Assembly (NCBI GenBank): GCA_022385805.1 | Contig: MU277677.1 | Coordinates: 202,252 to 266,251, forward strand | Reading direction: 5' to 3' | Source of the DNA: Pilatotrama ljubarskyi | Lineage: Eukaryota; Basidiomycota; Agaricomycetes; Polyporales; Polyporaceae | DNA length: 64,000 nt | Shown here: positions 32,454 to 62,240 of the stretch, in pieces | Layout: every line of letters begins with the position of its first letter | Numbering within the stretch: the stretch's first letter is position 1 | Translations under genes and position numbers: made by a program | Notes under the pieces: generated by a model | Told to the model about the DNA's origin: nothing | Seen by the model: only the letters and a program-made list of their open reading frames with translations | The model's database searches: none

Positions 32454-35400
32454 TCAGCCAAGCTCCATCTCGTCCCCAGCCCGACCTTTGCCCTTCGTAG
32501 TCCGTGTATCCGCCCCGTCGACCCTCCCGTTCGCCGCGGCCGTCAGCGACGAGCTCGCCATCGGCCGGGTCTGAGGCAGTCGGGCAAGGTTCTCCTGAAT
32601 CTCGTCCTCGATGCCAGCGTAGATGCTCTCCTGCGGGAAGCCCCATATCCGCCCAGGGTGCTCGCGCTCCTTCTCCTCGAACACGCCGCCAATCACGTCC
32701 ACCCAATTCCGGCGCGTCCGAACGAGCTCCTGCAGTTGCTCCGGAACGTGAAGCTGGTTATGCTCGTCCGGGTTCAGCCCTAACGCGGCTGGGCAGGGGG
32801 GCAGAGACGCGGTGCCGCCTATTGTACCATTCGCAGAACCGTGCAGAGCGTCGCCCTTCTGCTTCTTCTTCTTGTTCGCCTTCGGCCCGTCCTTCTTCTG
32901 CAGCTTGGAGTAGAGCGTCGTGATGTTCTTGTCGAGCGCGTCCCGCCCGTCGACGTACTCCTGGTATGCGAGGCGATCCTCAGCGATGGCAGCCAGTCGC
33001 GCGCGACGAGCTTTGTTCGTCGCAAGGACGGTGCGCAACTCCCGCTGCGCGTGTCGGAGTGCGGTCGCGATTGGGTCGTCGACCGCCTCCGAGTAGTCTG
33101 GCTGTAGGAATAACAATGATTTCTGAGCACTGCTAAATCTGCCACCTTATCTGGAAAAACCCACAATCTCATCGAGCAAACCATGAAATCGCATGACATT
33201 CCGCATGCGATCCTCAAGGTCAGCGACGTTGAGCTTGTCGCGCGCTGCCGCAGCAGCCGCGCCGTTTGTCCCAGGCCGGCCCTCCATTGCCTCTTCCGCC
33301 GCCTTCACGCCCTTCCACTCCGTCGCGTCCTGCATCGGGATCAGTGCGCTCACGACGCGCTCGGTCAACGGGCCGTGGCCCCGCTCCTCCGTGAGAAGGT
33401 CCGTGTCTCCCAGTGTCGAGGGCTCCCACTTGGGCAGCGCGCCCGGCGGTCCCGGATGTGCGTTCGCTCGCGACGCAGCAGTGCCTGGTAGAGGCCCGCC
33501 ATACATCGCCGTGTCCTCCTCTTCCCATACTTGCGAGTAATGTCGCCCGAGTTTCGGCATGATGAACGGCTCGACCTCGTCGCCAGTGTACTGCAGGAAG
33601 CCGATGTCCTCTTCCTTTATGGGTCGTAACCAGGGTTCTATGCTGGTGTAGAACGTCGTGACGAGGACCTGATTGGGCTGCTTGCTCTTACTGAAGTCTT
33701 CCTGGACTTCTGTAGGCTTGCTCGGCCCGGGGGCTGGGCGGGGGGCTACTGGTGGTCGTTGGGGAAGTAATGAGACCGCAGGCGGAAGCGCAAAGTCTGG
33801 ACCAGCAGGCTACAGGACGTGCATCCTGAGTTAACGAAACGGAACCGGAGACACATGCGGGACTGACCTTGGTGAATGCAGTAGACATAGAAGGAAACTT
33901 CGAGGCTTTCTGCGTCGGCGGATGTGGGTGGGTATGAGGAGGCAGCGGAGACGCCTTTCGAGGCTTCGGAGGGTCTGTGGCTGCGTGTGACCATCTTGTG
34001 CCGAGCAGCGACTCGTTGAACGTACCTGGTTCCAGGTCGCTTGAATCATCAAGTTTCCGCTTCTTCTTGTTCTTCTTCTTGAGCTCCTCGGCGGCACTGT
34101 GGATACGTCAGCTCCTGTTCGTTAGAAAACTGGTACTACTTGTCATGGAATAGCAGCCAGGAATTATGGGCGCGCGCTGGAAGCTGTCTCGTACCAAGGA
34201 GAATCCGAGCTGCATGACCGTCCGGTCACCGTACGTTGATGTAGCGGGGGAAGAGCAGCATGCTCTCACCCGACCCGCATCGATGATACCACTAGCCACA
34301 GGCTCACGAGCACTGCGCAGGCTGGTCGGACACATAAACCCGCACCAACCTAATCAATGCTCGCGACGACACATATAGGTCAAGAGAACGGTTCAAGCAT
34401 GCGTATGCTCACCGTTTGCGAGGATCTATTGATGACGGAGAAGGGGCGGGCATGGAGACAGCAGGCAATGATGACAAGCGATTCTTCGGCGGCTGCGGCT
34501 GAGGTTGCAATGAGGCTCTACCCTCGTCCCCGTTGATGGATGTAGATGGCGTGACTATGAGACCATTCGAACGGTGGCAGAGCCAGTATCAAGTTGATGA
34601 AATTGCCACAATAAGGTTTCAGACCCAGGGAAGGGCGATGGTGAGGGTCCGGAGAGAAGAGGCGTAGAATTTGGTGCCAGAGCCCGCGCGAGGGTATTTG
34701 TCGCCAGAATTTCCGTCCAGGCGAATGGATAGCAGTGGCGCGAAGCGATAGATACAAGACAAGGGAAGGAGGACGAGAAATACAGCGAGGACCACAGAAG
34801 CGCCACAGGAAGGTCCAAGCGTCATATTCAGCAGGACACAGCAGGTAGCGGTCATTAGTGTTTGCGTCAGCGCGAAGCGTGAGTACATGCGACATATGAG
34901 GCATCGGAGAGGACCAGAGATGGAGCAAACCATGGAAAGTTACCCATAGGGTCAGAAAGATGACCGTGAGACATCGCCAGGGCGTAAGGAGGCGCGAGGT
35001 CATATCGAGTCCGTTTCGTACGCGCGTTCGACCGCAGTGAGTACAGATGACAAAGGAAGTTATTGACGACACATTGGGCGCGAGAGTAGGTGAATGAGTG
35101 GCCGGGCGTGGCGTGACGTCGGGATTAGGAGGTTTGGATTGCACAGAGCGGGAACAGGTCAGTGGCAGGATGCCCAGAGTGCAAAGTAGTACGCACAGCC
35201 TCGTTCCCTCTCCGCCCTCTGCAAAGCCTTCGCTTTGCTCTTCTCCTTTTCCCTCAGACGTCGCATAGACTCCTCAATGGCTCGCATGTCATCACCGGCC
35301 TTCTTGGCGCGTTCGAGGCTCTTCTGCTTGAACGCGGTAAGCTCCGCGTGAAGCAGCTCAAGTTCATCTGTCGGTGGGACCGCGTCCGGGGGGTTATGGA

Positions 35401-35455
35401 AGAGAGCCGAGCGGATAGTGGGGAGAGCGGCGTATGGTGAGACTGAAGACGACAT
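32454..35455 (-). CDS. NGG1: SAGA/ADA complex subunit Ada3 (Ngg1)
   Basis: Adaptor of the Gcn5-Ada2-Ada3 histone acetyltransferase module of SAGA, nuclear. Exon 1 (35197-35455) reads MSSSVSPYAALPTIRSALFH, then DELELLHAELTAFKQKSLER, the coiled N-terminal helix of fungal Ada3. Exon 2 (34413-34554) gives TPSTSINGDEGRASLQPQPQ to SSIDPRKR. This joins in phase to AAEELKKKNKKKRKLDDSSD. The C-terminal Ada3 domain includes TTFYTSIEPWLRPIKEEDIG, MPKLGRHYSQVWEEED, LNVADLEDRMRNVMRFHGLL and SEAVDDPIATALRHAQRELR. The stop is at 32454. Intron 1 is exceptional: 642 nt and AG-free (separate entry). A second long intron (about 313 nt, 34100-34412) may hide a small exon. Confidence 0.88.
34555..35196 (-). other. 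642-nt AG-free intron 1 of the Ada3 gene
   Basis: Donor gtgcgt starts at 35196, after the first base of a codon (CGA GGC T). The acceptor catag ends at 34555, restoring the codon as TTC and continuing ACG CCA TCT. The phase of both exons demands exactly this join. Read on the transcribed (minus) strand, the intron has no AG anywhere before its final AG; on the plus strand there is no CT from 34557 to 35199. All other introns modelled here are mostly 50-75 nt. A branch-point-like CTGAC (35158-35162) sits 34 nt after the donor, about 600 nt from the acceptor; further CTGAC copies lie at 34951-34955 and 34866-34870. A TTGAT nearer the 3' end could also serve. Confidence 0.85.
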
Positions 35456-53897: not shown

Positions 53898-56609
53898 ATG
53901 CTCGATAGCTGGAGCTTCCACCTCAGCCCGTCTCCCTCCACGAGCTCCTCCGCACGCTCCTCCCACCTCTCCGTCCTCACCTCCGTATCGTCCGCAGCCT
54001 CGCCCCTGCCATCGCCTACGGGCAGCAAGACCCATGCGTTCTTCGCCTCGCCCTTTGGCGACGACTCTTCCATGCCCCAGCCCCCGCCCAACCCGCCCAA
54101 GCGCACCAGCTCTACCACCTTCAAGCCCTCCGAGCCCAGCACCAGCACCAGCACCAGCACCGGCGCAAGTGCGAATGCTAATGGGAAACCCGAAGACACG
54201 CCGAGGATAGAGCACAAAGCCCCCGCCCGCTCCCTGAACGCCGAGTTCTTCGGCCCGTCCCTCCTCCCCACCCCGCCCTCTAGCATCCGCTCCTTCTCGG
54301 GCAGCGCGTCCGGCTCCGTCCCCGGCTCGCGCGACAACTCCACTTCGCCCCCGTCCGCGCGCGTGCCCCTCCCCCCGCTCTCCAGGCTCTTCCCCTCGCG
54401 CGCGCGCTACGGCACCGAGCCCGACGCGTCCCATCTCCCATCTCACTCGCACTCTCACCATACCCACCCTCATCAGCATCAGCACCCGGGGACGAACGTG
54501 CGGCGCGACTTTGTCCATCTGGACACGACGAACCTGCTGCCGCCACATGGCGCGCCTGCTCCGCCTTATCACCACGCAGGGGAGCATACCGTATCTCCCG
54601 TCGACATCTCACACCCGCATGCGCACGAAGCGTCGTCGTCATCCGCGCAGGTGACGCCCAGGCCTACGCGCCGTGAAGAAGCCTCGTCCTACGTCGCGCG
54701 CCAGCCCCCGCCCTCGCCTCCGCCCTCCGAGCCCGACCACCACCCCCCAGAACCGCCCTCTGCGTCGACCTCCTCGCACCCTTCACCGGAGCCCGCCTCC
54801 GCCCCGGAACCGCTGGCCCCTGGGGTCACGCTGACGAGCTCTTCGCTCACGCTCGAGCTCGTGAAGCCGCTCGGGACGGGCACGTTCAGCAGCGTGTGGC
54901 TCGCGCGCGATGTCAAGGGCCAACTCGGCGCGCTCGAGCTCGTGAGGAAGTCGTCGCTCGCGCGAAGCAAGAGTTTTAGGCTGGGGAGGGGCAAGGGAAG
55001 GGGGAGGGAGAGGACGATTGACGGGACGAGGCCGACGAGGAAGAAGCAGGTCGTGAAGGAGGGCGAGGGCGAGGGCGAGGGCGAGGGCGAGAGAGGGCCG
55101 AGGCGCGAGGGGACAGAGGTCCTGTCGCCCGGGGAGGAGCCCACGAAGATCCTACAGCAGAACAGCGGGCAGGAGGATACGGGCCGCTTGGTCGCGGTGA
55201 AGATGACGGCACGTTCGCTGTGCGACGCGAACTCGCGCTCGCGCGTGAGCTTCGTGCGCGAGGTCGAGGTGCTCAGGGTGAGTGTCTTCTTTTGTCTTAG
55301 GGTCTGTGACCGTTTGTGCGTGCCGGGAGGGCTGCGGGAGATTCGGGGAGGGTGGTTGTGCTGACGCGTTTTGCTGCGAAGTGGTGGTGGTGGTGGTTGT
55401 ATGCGGTCAATGCGACCCAAGAACGCCAGAGCGGTAGTGGTCTCCCGTCAACATTGCACTTACTAACACCCCCCCTCCTTGCCCACAGCACATCGCGCAC
55501 CCCTCGATCGTCTCGTACCTGCACTCCTTCAGCACGCCGACGCACCACTGCCTCGTGCTCGAGCACATCGCGGGCGGCGAGCTCCTCGAGCTCGTCGATG
55601 ACCCGCAGCGCCATGCGCGCCTCACCGAGCCGCTCGTCCGCCGCATTTGGGGCGAGCTCTGCAAAGCCGTCGCGTGGATGCACAGCGTCGGGCTCGTGCA
55701 CCGCGACATCAAGCTCGAGAGTGCGTACCCCCTCTCTCTCTGTGTATGTGTATGTGAACAGCATAGCGCGGTCTCTAACGCACTCGAACGGCAGACATCC
55801 TCCTGACCGCCGACCCGTTCGCCCAGCCGCTGCCCGCCTCCTCGCTCATCAAGCTCACCGACTTTGGCCTCTCGCGCTTCGTCGACCCCGCCCAGCCGCT
55901 CCTCACCACGCTCTGCGGCTCCGAGTCGTACGCCGCGCCCGAGCTCGTCATGGGCCGCGCGTACGACGGGCGCGAGACGGACGCGTGGGCGTGCGGCGTC
56001 GTCCTGTACGCGCTCGCCACGCGCAGGCTTCCGTTCGACGCGCCGCCCGCCGACGGACAAGGCGGGCAATCGGGAGGGGGTATCCCCCACGAGCAGCGGG
56101 CGCGCGTGGAGGCGGATTGGGAGGTGCAGAGGCGTAAGAGGGGCGAGAGGAGGGCGCTGTTGGTCCGGATCGCCAAGGGCGAGTATTCGTGGCCCGAGCC
56201 CGCGCCGGCATCACCCCGCGAATCCGGCGAGAGCGCGGAAGCGAGCGGCGAGGCGCTCGCGCGGAGCGAGGGCATACGGAGGATGGTCGGTCGGCTGCTC
56301 GTGCGCGACCCGCGGAAGCGCGCGCGCGTCGCGGAGCTGTGGGAGGACGGGTGGATGCGCGGGGAGGGCGCGCCCCCGCCGCCGGTTTTGCCGCCGCCGG
56401 ACGATGCTTTGCCTGTGGCGGAGGCGGAGGCGGGGCCCGTGCCGTTGCCTGCGGAGGACGAGGTCGTCGCTGTCGTTCCGGACGCGGACGGTGAAGTGGA
56501 GAGTGAGGTAGATGTCGATGTCGATGCGGAGGTCGATGCTGACGACGAGGGCGTGTTGGTGGATGGTGAGGATATCGGGCCGGGGAGCGTCGCTCGTCAG
56601 GAGCATTAG
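53898..56609 (+). CDS. Serine/threonine protein kinase (CAMK-like) with large N-terminal extension
   Basis: The N-terminal ~310 residues are disordered, rich in Ser/Pro/His (SHSHSHHTHPHQHQHP). The kinase domain begins LELVKPLGTGTFSSVWLARD. An ~85-residue basic then Glu/Gly-repeat insertion (gagggc hexamers at about 55060-55090) separates the Gly-loop from the Lys motif RLVAVKM. Then SIVSYLHSFSTPTHHCLVLE, the HRDIKLEN catalytic loop (restored across intron 55721-55795), LTDFGLSRF, LCGSESYAAPELVMG and WACGVVLYALATRRLPFDAP follow. The acidic tail ends DGEDIGPGSVARQEH. Introns are at 55276-55488 and 55721-55795. The catalytic set is complete. I cannot assign a named orthologue. Its last ~100 codons and 3' flank are duplicated at 59279. 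Confidence 0.88.
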
Positions 56610-59569: not shown

Positions 59570-62240
59570 CGAAGTGGTCCCGCTCATCCCACCATGTTGT
59601 CTAGCGGTCAGTGTTGAGCAGAGTACTGCCGCCGCCGACTGCCACACGCCCATCACCTCGACACTCCCCGTTCAGTGCGGTTTCCCCGCTGGCCTCATCA
59701 CCACCCTGGCCCCCAGCACCCCGGAGACGCTGTACATGAAGAAGAAACCTTCTCCTCGTAACATATTGCTCTCACTTACCCTGTTCTCACACTACCCGCC
59801 TACTGCTCCCGCTCACCGCAGCTCACTTGCTCCCCTCGCTTCCGGCTCTGCTAGTATGCAACTCGCTCTCGCTCCCGCTTCGTCCGCTTGTGCCACCGTC
59901 CTTATCTTCCAGCCCTATCCTGCACTCACGCGTCCCGGCAATGCAACTCACACCTTCATCACACCACCGTCATCGCTATATCATCATTTATCCTCTGCCT
60001 CTCCACCCCTGCAACATACATACGCGCATACTCACTCATTCGTAGCAATAGCGTAACGTACACTTATACAACCCTGCCGTCCCTGATCTGCGATTCGATC
60101 CGCTCAATTGTGGCTTGGTGTTGTCGCTAATACTTTCTCCTACTCTGTGCCGCGTATCCGCTTCGTGTATTCTACGCTTGCCCTGCGGCCTGCTGCTGTG
60201 ACGAATAGATGCCGTCTGAGCCACCCACGTCGAGCGCGAGTCAGGACATCGGGCGAACGGCACGTCAATGCCGAAGAGTTGCAATAACTGTGTGCATAGT
60301 CCCCAGCCGACAAGGAAAGGAGGTAGGGGCAAGACGCGCTTTCGCGCGGTCACCCTCGTTTCAAGGGGCCAAGTACCAACGATGCATGGGACACTTCCGC
60401 CAGGCCGCTGTGCCATCATCAAGAGGCCCCTTCACGACTTCAAGCCTACCAGTAGGCATCTCTAGCTGCCAGAAAGGAGGCCCTCAGGTCGTTCTGTAAA
60501 CATCCCCACACACCGGTGGATCCAGGGCGTTAGAGATCGCCTGTGGATACGCTAGGGAATCACGTACGTAAGCAGCCCAATAGTCTTTGCCGGGTTTAAT
60601 GCCTCTGATCAGGCCGCTGTAGTACTGCAGAGATGGCGATTCAGCGGATGTCATGAGACGGTAGCATGGGGCTCACGCACTTCGGACTCGTACCGTAGGC
60701 TACGTACGGCGGGGCCGACAGACCCAACGAATTTAGGTGGAACGATGCCCTGTGGTCGAAGACCGCGTCAGCCGCGTCAGAATTGCAGGTAGAACAGAGA
60801 CCAGGAGATACGTACGCGCTTGCCAATGAAACTTTCAAGCATAGCCCTGCAAATGAGGAAGTGGGCACAACAGGCGGCTCCGACTGAGTCGCAGCGTCAC
60901 GCTGTCAAGAACACTCGAGCACTCACTGCGCGGTCGTCACCAACCCCGCATATGCGCCGACGACGGACTGGGCATCGTCGCCATAGAGTATCGGCCCCTA
61001 TGGCAGGACGTAGGCGGCGTCAGACGACTCGTGACAAGCAGTGAATCGCATACTCGGAATTTACTCACATTCGGGAACAACTTCTCCTCTTCCACCATCC
61101 GTTCGATGACGCGGTGGAAGTCCCCCTTGATGTCCTAACCGCACAGCGCGGCGTGGCGTGAGCTCCCACTGGCAGCTTATCCCGAGAGTCCAGCACTGCC
61201 AGTGTCGGGGCGACGTACCGGGATCTTATCTGCGGCGTTGTCTTTGGTGACTTGCTGGACCTGCTTGTCGAGGTTGGCATAAGCCGCGGTGACCCGCTGG
61301 ATCGACTGAACGGTCGTCGAGGCGTTCTGGGACATCACCCCCATAGCGAGGGCGACAACGAGCCCGGCCGCCGGGAGGATCTTGGAGGTGAATTTCATGG
61401 AGGCAGTGGGAAGAGTACAGTGGAGGCGGGCCCGGGGGGGGTATTCGAGCAGGGTCGAATGCAGTACTCGGGCTTGCCAACGCTCTCTTATACCTCTCGC
61501 GCTAGTGGGTGGCCCAGCGGATGGGCAAGCATCGTGCGCCATATTCTTTGAGATGCATGCGAAGTATGACTTGGAGGACATCTAGCAGATCCGCCTGGGG
61601 GCATATTCTCCATTCATCTACGCCGCTTCCGATCAGAGCGTACGCGACAGCACGAGCCAGGGAGCTACGCACCTAAGACGGCTGGCGTGTAGCGACGCAC
61701 GTCTGAACAGGGTGTGTTTATGGCCCTGCGAGGCATGGAAGGTACCTACGCAGGCGACATACAACCATCGAGACACGACGTCCTGCACGAATGCGCAAAG
61801 GGCCAGTTCTGGAGAGCTGCCTCGACGGCGACTCGGCACATTGCAACATCAACATGCCATGCCATCACAGGCCGACTCGGAGCAGCAGCGCGCGAGTCGA
61901 ACGGATGTGCGGCGCCGGCATGGCTTGTAGTACAATTAATGGCTTTGACGTTACGGTGAGGCTGCCGTTTGACTTCAGGTTGCCACCGACGAGCTGTGGT
62001 CTCTCGGCTTTTCTGGCAAAGAGTCCCGCAACTCATGAGAGGATCCCTCTTCATTTAATGAAGTGCGAGCAGCACTTGGGGCAAACAGGTGATAAGCGTG
62101 CGCTGCTTCAAGCTGTGGGCAGAGCTAGAGGGAGTGTTTCAAGTGCGCACAGGTGCGCACCCGATCAGACCCGATCGAGCGAGGCCCTTGCGGCAGGTGC
62201 AGAGGCGCCCGAAACGGCCGCGAGGAGTACGTATACTTCT
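59279..62240. repeat. Tandem segmental duplication, unit B
   Basis: Second copy of the ~2.95 kb unit: kinase tail, 3' flank, HsbA-like copy 2 and its upstream region to about 62240. There the match with the end of unit A (caggtgcagaggcgcccgaa, 59215 and 62194 areas) stops. The third HsbA-like gene follows without a kinase tail. Confidence 0.8.
60484..61398 (-). CDS. Small secreted protein, HsbA-like, copy 2
   Basis: Paralogue of copies 1 and 3. Signal peptide MKFTSKILPAAGLVVALAMG, then VQSIQRVTAAYANLDKQVQQ VTKDNAADKIP. Following exons are DIKGDFHRVIERMVEEEKLF, GPILYGDDAQSVVGAYAGLV, TTAQAMLESFIGKR, GIVPPKFVGSVGPAVRSLRY and YYSGLIRGIKPGKDYWAAY, with a stop at 60484. Exon boundaries and phases agree with copy 1, for example the split Gln codon CA|G and the donor AAGCGC|gtacgt. 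This is the most complete member and best defines the structure: about 190 residues, no cysteine-rich region, helical. Probably a secreted wall or surface protein. Confidence 0.72.

Follow-up and report, generated by a model that had tools for sequence, protein, structure and literature searches.

How far, and how strictly linearly, the spliceosome searches for an acceptor once branching has taken place is an open question, and the tolerance reported for fungi in the literature found is of the order of tens of nucleotides. The 64,000-nt stretch of the Pilatotrama ljubarskyi (Polyporales) genome analyzed here (the window) contains a minus-strand gene, 35455..32454, whose first intron has no AG other than its own 3′ splice site. 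More than 600 nt apparently purged of this dinucleotide, the weak acceptors GAG and AAG included, would expose the rule of acceptor search from sequence. What, then, keeps the intron free of AG?

The AG-free intron is the first intron of an Ada3 gene

The gene encodes Ada3 (transcriptional adaptor/NGG1), as the first-pass annotation had proposed: its 625-aa spliced product matches the Pfam family Ada3 (PF10198, E = 7.6e-25) and, among the matches listed, shares 94% identity over its entire length with a protein from Trametes cingulata. The exon map, together with the other features discussed below, is given in Table 1. A protein search with the Ada3 product returned 261 matches; 31 records from the best 120 were aligned, the species' own public record (P0011) included. 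In 26 of these 31 records, the sequence runs continuously from exon 1 to exon 2 with an insertion of at most 1 to 2 residues, in agreement with the intron boundaries originally put forward. As the aligned records are mostly predicted proteins, this continuity is not independent proof of splicing. Two further relatives among the matches listed, P0026 and P0032 (622 and 630 aa), are also continuous across the exon 1/exon 2 junction; their contigs measure 2172 and 3572 bases, respectively, and are small enough to be transcript-like.

Five of the 31 records (P0011, P0021, P0038, P0043, and P0083) lack the N terminus. P0011 (437 aa) is 100% identical over its length to the Ada3 product and starts at an internal Met in exon 4, so that exons 1 to 3 and intron 1 are left out. 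Judging from P0011 and the other four records, the 5′ region of Ada3 seems difficult for gene finders, and the AG-free intron may account for their missing such exons. The Daedaleopsis nitida model P0021 opens with MIWRFSTVRT immediately 5′ of the exon 2 sequence; this peptide is perhaps the translated end of that gene's own intron 1 and could reveal part of the orthologous intron end.

The neighboring introns had been described as ~55 nt long. This holds for introns 3 to 5 (51, 58, and 63 nt) and fails for intron 2, at 316 nt. For intron 3, an EP-DPP junction in most of the aligned relatives favors the 51-nt version, while the protein used as the search query took the acceptor at 33981 (45-nt version).

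Table 1. Features of the Ada3 locus and splicing factor family matches (window coordinates unless a genome locus is given)
Feature	Position	Strand	Remarks
Ada3 exon 1	35197..35455	-	ATG at 35455; aligns to relatives' proteins
Ada3 intron 1	34555..35196	-	642 nt; sole AG is the acceptor
5′ splice site GTGCGT	35191..35196	-	donor G at 35196; sole GTRNGT within the AG-free run
Predicted branch point CTGAC	35158..35162	-	A at 35159, +38 from donor, 604 nt to acceptor G
Second CTRAY, CTAAT	35124..35128	-	A at +72
Further CTGAC	34951..34955	-	A at +245
Further CTGAC	34866..34870	-	A at +330
Further CTAAT	34854..34858	-	A at +342
Weak alternative branch point TTGAT	34588..34592	-	A 34 nt before intron 1 end
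3′ splice site TAG (CATAG)	34555..34557	-	acceptor G at 34555; first AG past donor
Ada3 exon 2	34413..34554	-	sequence reading and protein alignment
Ada3 intron 2	34097..34412	-	316 nt
Ada3 exon 3	34026..34096	-	sequence reading and protein alignment
Ada3 intron 3	33975..34025	-	51 nt; 45 nt if upstream acceptor at 33981
Ada3 exon 4	33868..33974	-	sequence reading and protein alignment
Ada3 intron 4	33810..33867	-	58 nt; matches public model P0011
Ada3 exon 5	33165..33809	-	sequence reading and protein alignment
Ada3 intron 5	33102..33164	-	63 nt; matches public model P0011
Last Ada3 coding exon, through stop	32454..33101	-	sequence reading, Pfam match
Cactin family match	genome G000 C1:440531-440938		one locus
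Hep_59/Tls1 family match	genome G000 C1:965250-965459		one locus
Sde2 family match	genome G000 C58:90452-90706		one locus

The depletion is specific to AG and local to intron 1

On the plus strand, the 643 bases from 34557 to 35199 contain no CT, exactly as first reported, the bounding CTs lying at 34555-34556 and 35200-35201. This AG-free run coincides with intron 1 plus 3 nt of exon 1; it had been said to end near the donor and the acceptor, and the overshoot at the donor side is these 3 nt. Our recount of the intron (A 108, C 222, G 128, T 184) returned a single AG, that of the 3′ splice site, against about 21 (21.4) expected from composition, a figure lower than the 25 to 35 initially estimated. 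Given this composition, zero AG has an exact probability of 10^-11.4 (about 4e-12), and the fewest AGs in 20,000 mononucleotide shuffles of the intron was 7. All kinds of NAG are affected: only the acceptor TAG is present, with expectations of 5.2 for AAG, 6.9 for CAG, 4.4 for GAG, and 5.0 for TAG.

Other counts are not reduced in this manner, with GA at 22 (21.5 expected) and CT at 81 (63.6 expected). Intron 2, which serves as an internal control, has a normal AG content (19 versus 17.2 expected), and exon 1 has 25 AGs in 259 nt, consistent with the earlier remark that AGs are common in the flanking exon. The depletion in intron 1 is therefore AG specific and local, and since intron 2 is also long and yet AG normal, neither length nor position in the gene would alone suffice for AG loss. 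In a test in which the AG-free expectation was fitted to the sampled dinucleotide bias, no dinucleotide was in significant excess as a footprint of lost AGs (chi-square 11.2 on 8 df; AA 26 versus 21.6 and GG 26 versus 25.1), and the sequence of intron 1 is thus silent on whether AGs were mutated away or were never present.

Intron 1 is also open, throughout and beyond, in a 251-aa minus-strand frame (34518-35273), as might be the case if it were coding, either as a retained alternative exon or as a separate small gene, and owed its lack of AG to codon use. We consider this very improbable. The frame is offset from that of exon 1; its 213-aa intron part has no Pfam match up to E = 1; none of 207 candidates from a set of 5.8 billion proteins matched the 251-aa frame at E = 1 or better; an open frame arises by chance in 1.7% of AG-free Markov sequences; and exon 1 is joined to exon 2 in the 26 aligned records mentioned above.

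An AG-free run of this length stands alone in the genome sample

AG-free runs were scanned for on both strands of 285,152 bases, made up of the window, of 20 stretches from its contig, and of 8 short loci; most of this 0.9% of the genome belongs to one contig. Among the 36,987 unmasked AG-free runs in these bases, 100 were at least 100 nt long and 3, counting intron 1, at least 200 nt. The only run of at least 250 nt was that of intron 1; the runner-up, at 243 nt, has no donor and no CTRAY motif, and in none of the 13 next longest runs did we find a donor plus a branch point at the usual spacing. Extrapolation of the tail to the 33.1-Mb genome gives about 1e-5 expected runs as long as that of intron 1. 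The finding concerns one species and one intron, set against 0.9% of the genome, and further long AG-free introns are possible elsewhere in the remainder.

Chance, local base composition, or an AG-poor repeat might be invoked as the origin of the run, the intron being pyrimidine rich (406 of 642 bases C or T). The probability of the run at the intron's own composition, its genome-wide expectation, and the normal GA count all speak against chance and composition, however, and a repeat is at odds with the intron's matching the genome only at its own place and with its internal repeats being short and imperfect. An origin of this kind appears to us vanishingly improbable.

Two long runs lacking other dinucleotides were observed on the plus strand, 340 nt without GA (59745-60084) and 324 nt without CA (56274-56597), each the longest unmasked run of its kind among the stretches listed.

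Intron 1 has a standard head and a displaced acceptor

In the same 285 kb, the A of a CTRAY motif lies 30 to 49 nt past a GTRNGT donor in 180 instances, compared to 60 for the reversed motif (1216 GTRNGT sites). CTGAC is the commonest CTRAY form, accounting for 149 of the 277 CTRAY sites preceded by a donor, and the first HAG after these sites is mostly 10 to 19 nt on (126 of 277). The GTGCGT donor of intron 1 and its CTGAC, the A of which at +38 falls inside the 30- to 49-nt peak, are hence ordinary for this genome: the head of the intron is standard and only the acceptor is displaced. For comparison, intron 2 has a CTGAC starting 15 nt before its 3′ end. A U12-type identity of intron 1 was considered and discarded; U12-type introns have a 5′ splice site of the RTATCCTT type, and the 5′ end of intron 1 is GTGCGTAC.

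We then surveyed pairs of a GTRNGT donor and a CTRAY at 28 to 55 nt, of which there were 194, compared to 90 with the reversed control motif. The gap from the CTRAY to the next AG was at least 30 nt in 22 of the 194 pairs (control, 16), at least 75 nt in 2 (control, 1), and at least 100 nt in a single one (control, 0), which is intron 1 with 604 nt; the second largest gap was 80 nt. From the reversed-motif counts, some of the 194 pairs arise by chance, those with long gaps above all.

Five CTRAY sites occur in intron 1, none of them in its final 299 nt, where a TTGAT is present at −34 (Table 1). If AG exclusion starts at the branch point, the stretch from the donor to it is AG free by chance only, with a probability of 0.28 for the +38 site, 0.09 for +72, and at most 0.0003 for +245 or later. 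The exclusion zone itself thus favors the first or the second CTRAY site; upstream of +38 there are only 37 nt of intron, without an AG. A competent branch point close to the donor is accordingly indicated, whether the final product is made from it or from another site. The 18 bases after the +38 A include 14 pyrimidines (by eye), but C+T makes up 63% of the entire intron and ranges from 0.55 to 0.75 between its successive stretches. The +38 CTGAC had been put forward as a possible branch point from the beginning; its motif form and spacing speak for that assignment, while the TTGAT at −34 is a possible conventional site in its stead.

A donor-proximal branch point and selection against AG probably explain the intron

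Taken together, intron 1 is probably a distant-branch-point intron, with a donor-proximal branch point and purifying selection against every downstream AG. Such an intron would have retained the 5′ portion of a typical short fungal intron (GTGCGT, with CTGAC at the usual spacing). With a normal donor-to-branch-point spacing, step 1 would be possible once both sites are transcribed, and at +38 it would run during transcription of the remaining intron, with no wait for the acceptor. The spliceosome would subsequently pick the first AG that it can use downstream of the branch point, and exon 1 would be spliced to any AG arising inside the 604-nt zone, even a GAG or AAG, to the ruin of Ada3. As the correct AG is 604 nt off, mutations creating an AG in between would be harmful and be removed, leaving intron 1 AG free. 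The AG exclusion, its specificity, its coincidence with intron 1, the standard donor-to-branch-point spacing, and the lack of CTRAY in the final 299 nt are observed; branching at +38, a selective cause, and a preference for the first AG in P. ljubarskyi are inferred. Against a distant branch point stand the 604 nt, far beyond the fungal spacings in the literature found, the TTGAT at −34, which could serve, and the omission of intron 1 from the public model P0011.

The TTGAT could alternatively be the productive branch point, in which case the upstream CTRAY sites, chiefly the +38 CTGAC, would be decoys that yield no correct product and yet drive the AG purge, an AG downstream of any of them being open to splicing. 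This would require no 604-nt branch-point-to-acceptor spacing, the TTGAT is 34 nt before the intron end, and all five CTRAY sites are upstream of it. Moreover, TTRAY is described as a minor fungal branch-site motif, found in 4 to 5% of Fusarium introns (3.96% in the table or 4.99% in the text of PMC5677156, where TTGAT is given without EST support). On the other hand, TTGAT is off consensus, a TTRAY would occur by chance in 40 nt with a probability of ~0.1 (rough estimate), and a decoy finishing step 1 without a nearby AG would compete with the productive site. We regard TTGAT as an unlikely productive site.

The absence of even the weak GAG and AAG would also be compatible with another cause. 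Intron 1 might avoid a protein-binding or enhancer motif that contains AG, and so never be read as exon, or its removal might be slow or regulated, which would make cryptic acceptors costly wherever the branch point lies. Motifs of that kind exceed 2 bases, however, and would not purge every AG, and the run ends at the splice sites, as acceptor choice would directly explain. A cause of this sort is in our opinion quite improbable.

RNA folding and the origin of the intron

An acceptor 604 nt from the branch point might be brought near by RNA structure, as with downstream stems in yeast. When intron 1 is folded alone, positions +37-40 pair with 633-636 with a probability of 0.95 to 0.96, a helix that would bring the branch point beside the acceptor but that also buries the branch adenosine. 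Of nine flanked versions, the one extended by 20 nt of 3′ exon left the 38:635 pair a probability of 0.08, and in the remaining eight the value was 0.00. Shuffled controls with a branch-point-to-acceptor distance at least as short numbered 1 of 65 for the intron alone, 6 of 65 for the intron from +46, 26 of 50 with both 60-nt flanks, and 6 of 60 when the fold began at +46 and took in 60 nt of 3′ exon. The helix is lost with flanks and the flanked intron equals its shuffles, and the structure is accordingly not counted as support: bridging of +38 and the acceptor by RNA was dropped as an argument, the effect needing the exons to be left out of the fold. The overall folding energy of intron 1 is ordinary (z = 0.03 versus 20 shuffles). 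That step 1 takes place at +38 and the acceptor is then found 604 nt on without a stable bridging structure, by a fungal spliceosome used to short introns, is a tentative proposition, toward which we lean slightly less than away from it.

Growth of intron 1 by duplication or a mobile element was also considered and rejected, the genome search having matched the intron 1 region only at its own locus. No Rfam match was obtained for intron 1 up to E = 1. Of the internal direct repeats detected, the longest measures 21 nt at 76%. A plasmid collection yielded no counterpart either, nor was one anticipated.

Comparison with distant branch points in other systems

The combination of a distant branch point and an AG exclusion zone is an already established principle in mammals. 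Gooding et al. (2006; PMC1431707) report human exons of this type, including PTB exon 11 with a zone of 381 nt, and argue for first-AG acceptor choice after the branch point in mammals. They also list a tyrosine phosphatase sigma intron, with a zone of 1126/1132 nt and a candidate branch point close to the donor, at −1079, among the cases awaiting experimental verification. The extremity implied at first for the Ada3 intron is therefore not unprecedented in print, the phosphatase sigma zone likewise spanning nearly the whole intron. The zone of the mouse orthologue is given as just 229 nt, which indicates that AG deserts need not be conserved. The human introns in that report resemble Ada3 intron 1 in being AG free from a far-upstream consensus branch point to the acceptor; several of them are alternatively spliced, whereas intron 1 is fungal, has a predicted spacing of 604 nt, and has no known alternative exon.

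In vertebrate OGDH intron 4a, branch points are reported at 25 to 41 nt from the donor (PMC7969005). A GAG is tolerated in one fish OGDH intron, and the canonical zone of ocean sunfish is about 280 nt; Ada3 intron 1, which excludes GAG too, is stricter than the fish intron. OGDH intron 4a is further described as enforcing mutually exclusive exons and as having a large uridine-rich tract, in contrast to the moderate pyrimidine content and lack of a known exon choice in Ada3 intron 1.

Among fungi, branch-point-distant acceptors in S. pombe need Sde2, Cay1/Cactin, and Tls1 (equated with Hep_59), Cay1 and Tls1 being described as working in the same process as Sde2 (PMC9508853). According to the same source, reporters with a spacing of at least 30 nt are poorly excised even in the wild type, in a Sde2-dependent manner; in reporters, a near acceptor wins outright against a distant one; and natural introns with a spacing of at least 30 nt number about 40 of some 5250. 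Both systems are fungal introns with a longer branch-point-to-acceptor spacing, and the three factor families have matches in the P. ljubarskyi genome, but the long S. pombe spacings are of tens of nucleotides (39 in rap1 intron 2), compared to a predicted 604 in Ada3 intron 1, some 20 times the 30 nt already poorly spliced in the S. pombe reporters. A comparable fungal AG-free intron was not found in a literature search that mostly covered papers outside subscription, and a productive 604-nt spacing would lack fungal precedent in the literature found. What the Ada3 intron adds to the known cases is its place in a compact fungal genome where most introns are short, with every NAG excluded and no known alternative exon.

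Factors for distant acceptors are probably encoded in the P. ljubarskyi genome

Searches of the P. ljubarskyi genome with the three families gave matches over the cutoff for Sde2 (E = 5.3e-14), the Cactin C terminus (1.3e-22), and Hep_59 (Tls1) (4.4e-11), each at one locus (Table 1). These matches indicate only that the factors are probably present. Intron 1 lends itself to tests of long-range acceptor search and of Cactin, Sde2, and Tls1, and if acceptor choice does operate over the 604 nt, the AG-free intron would be a natural substrate for such a search. Should branching at +38 hold, intron 1 could perhaps also act as a cotranscriptional timer on Ada3/SAGA expression.
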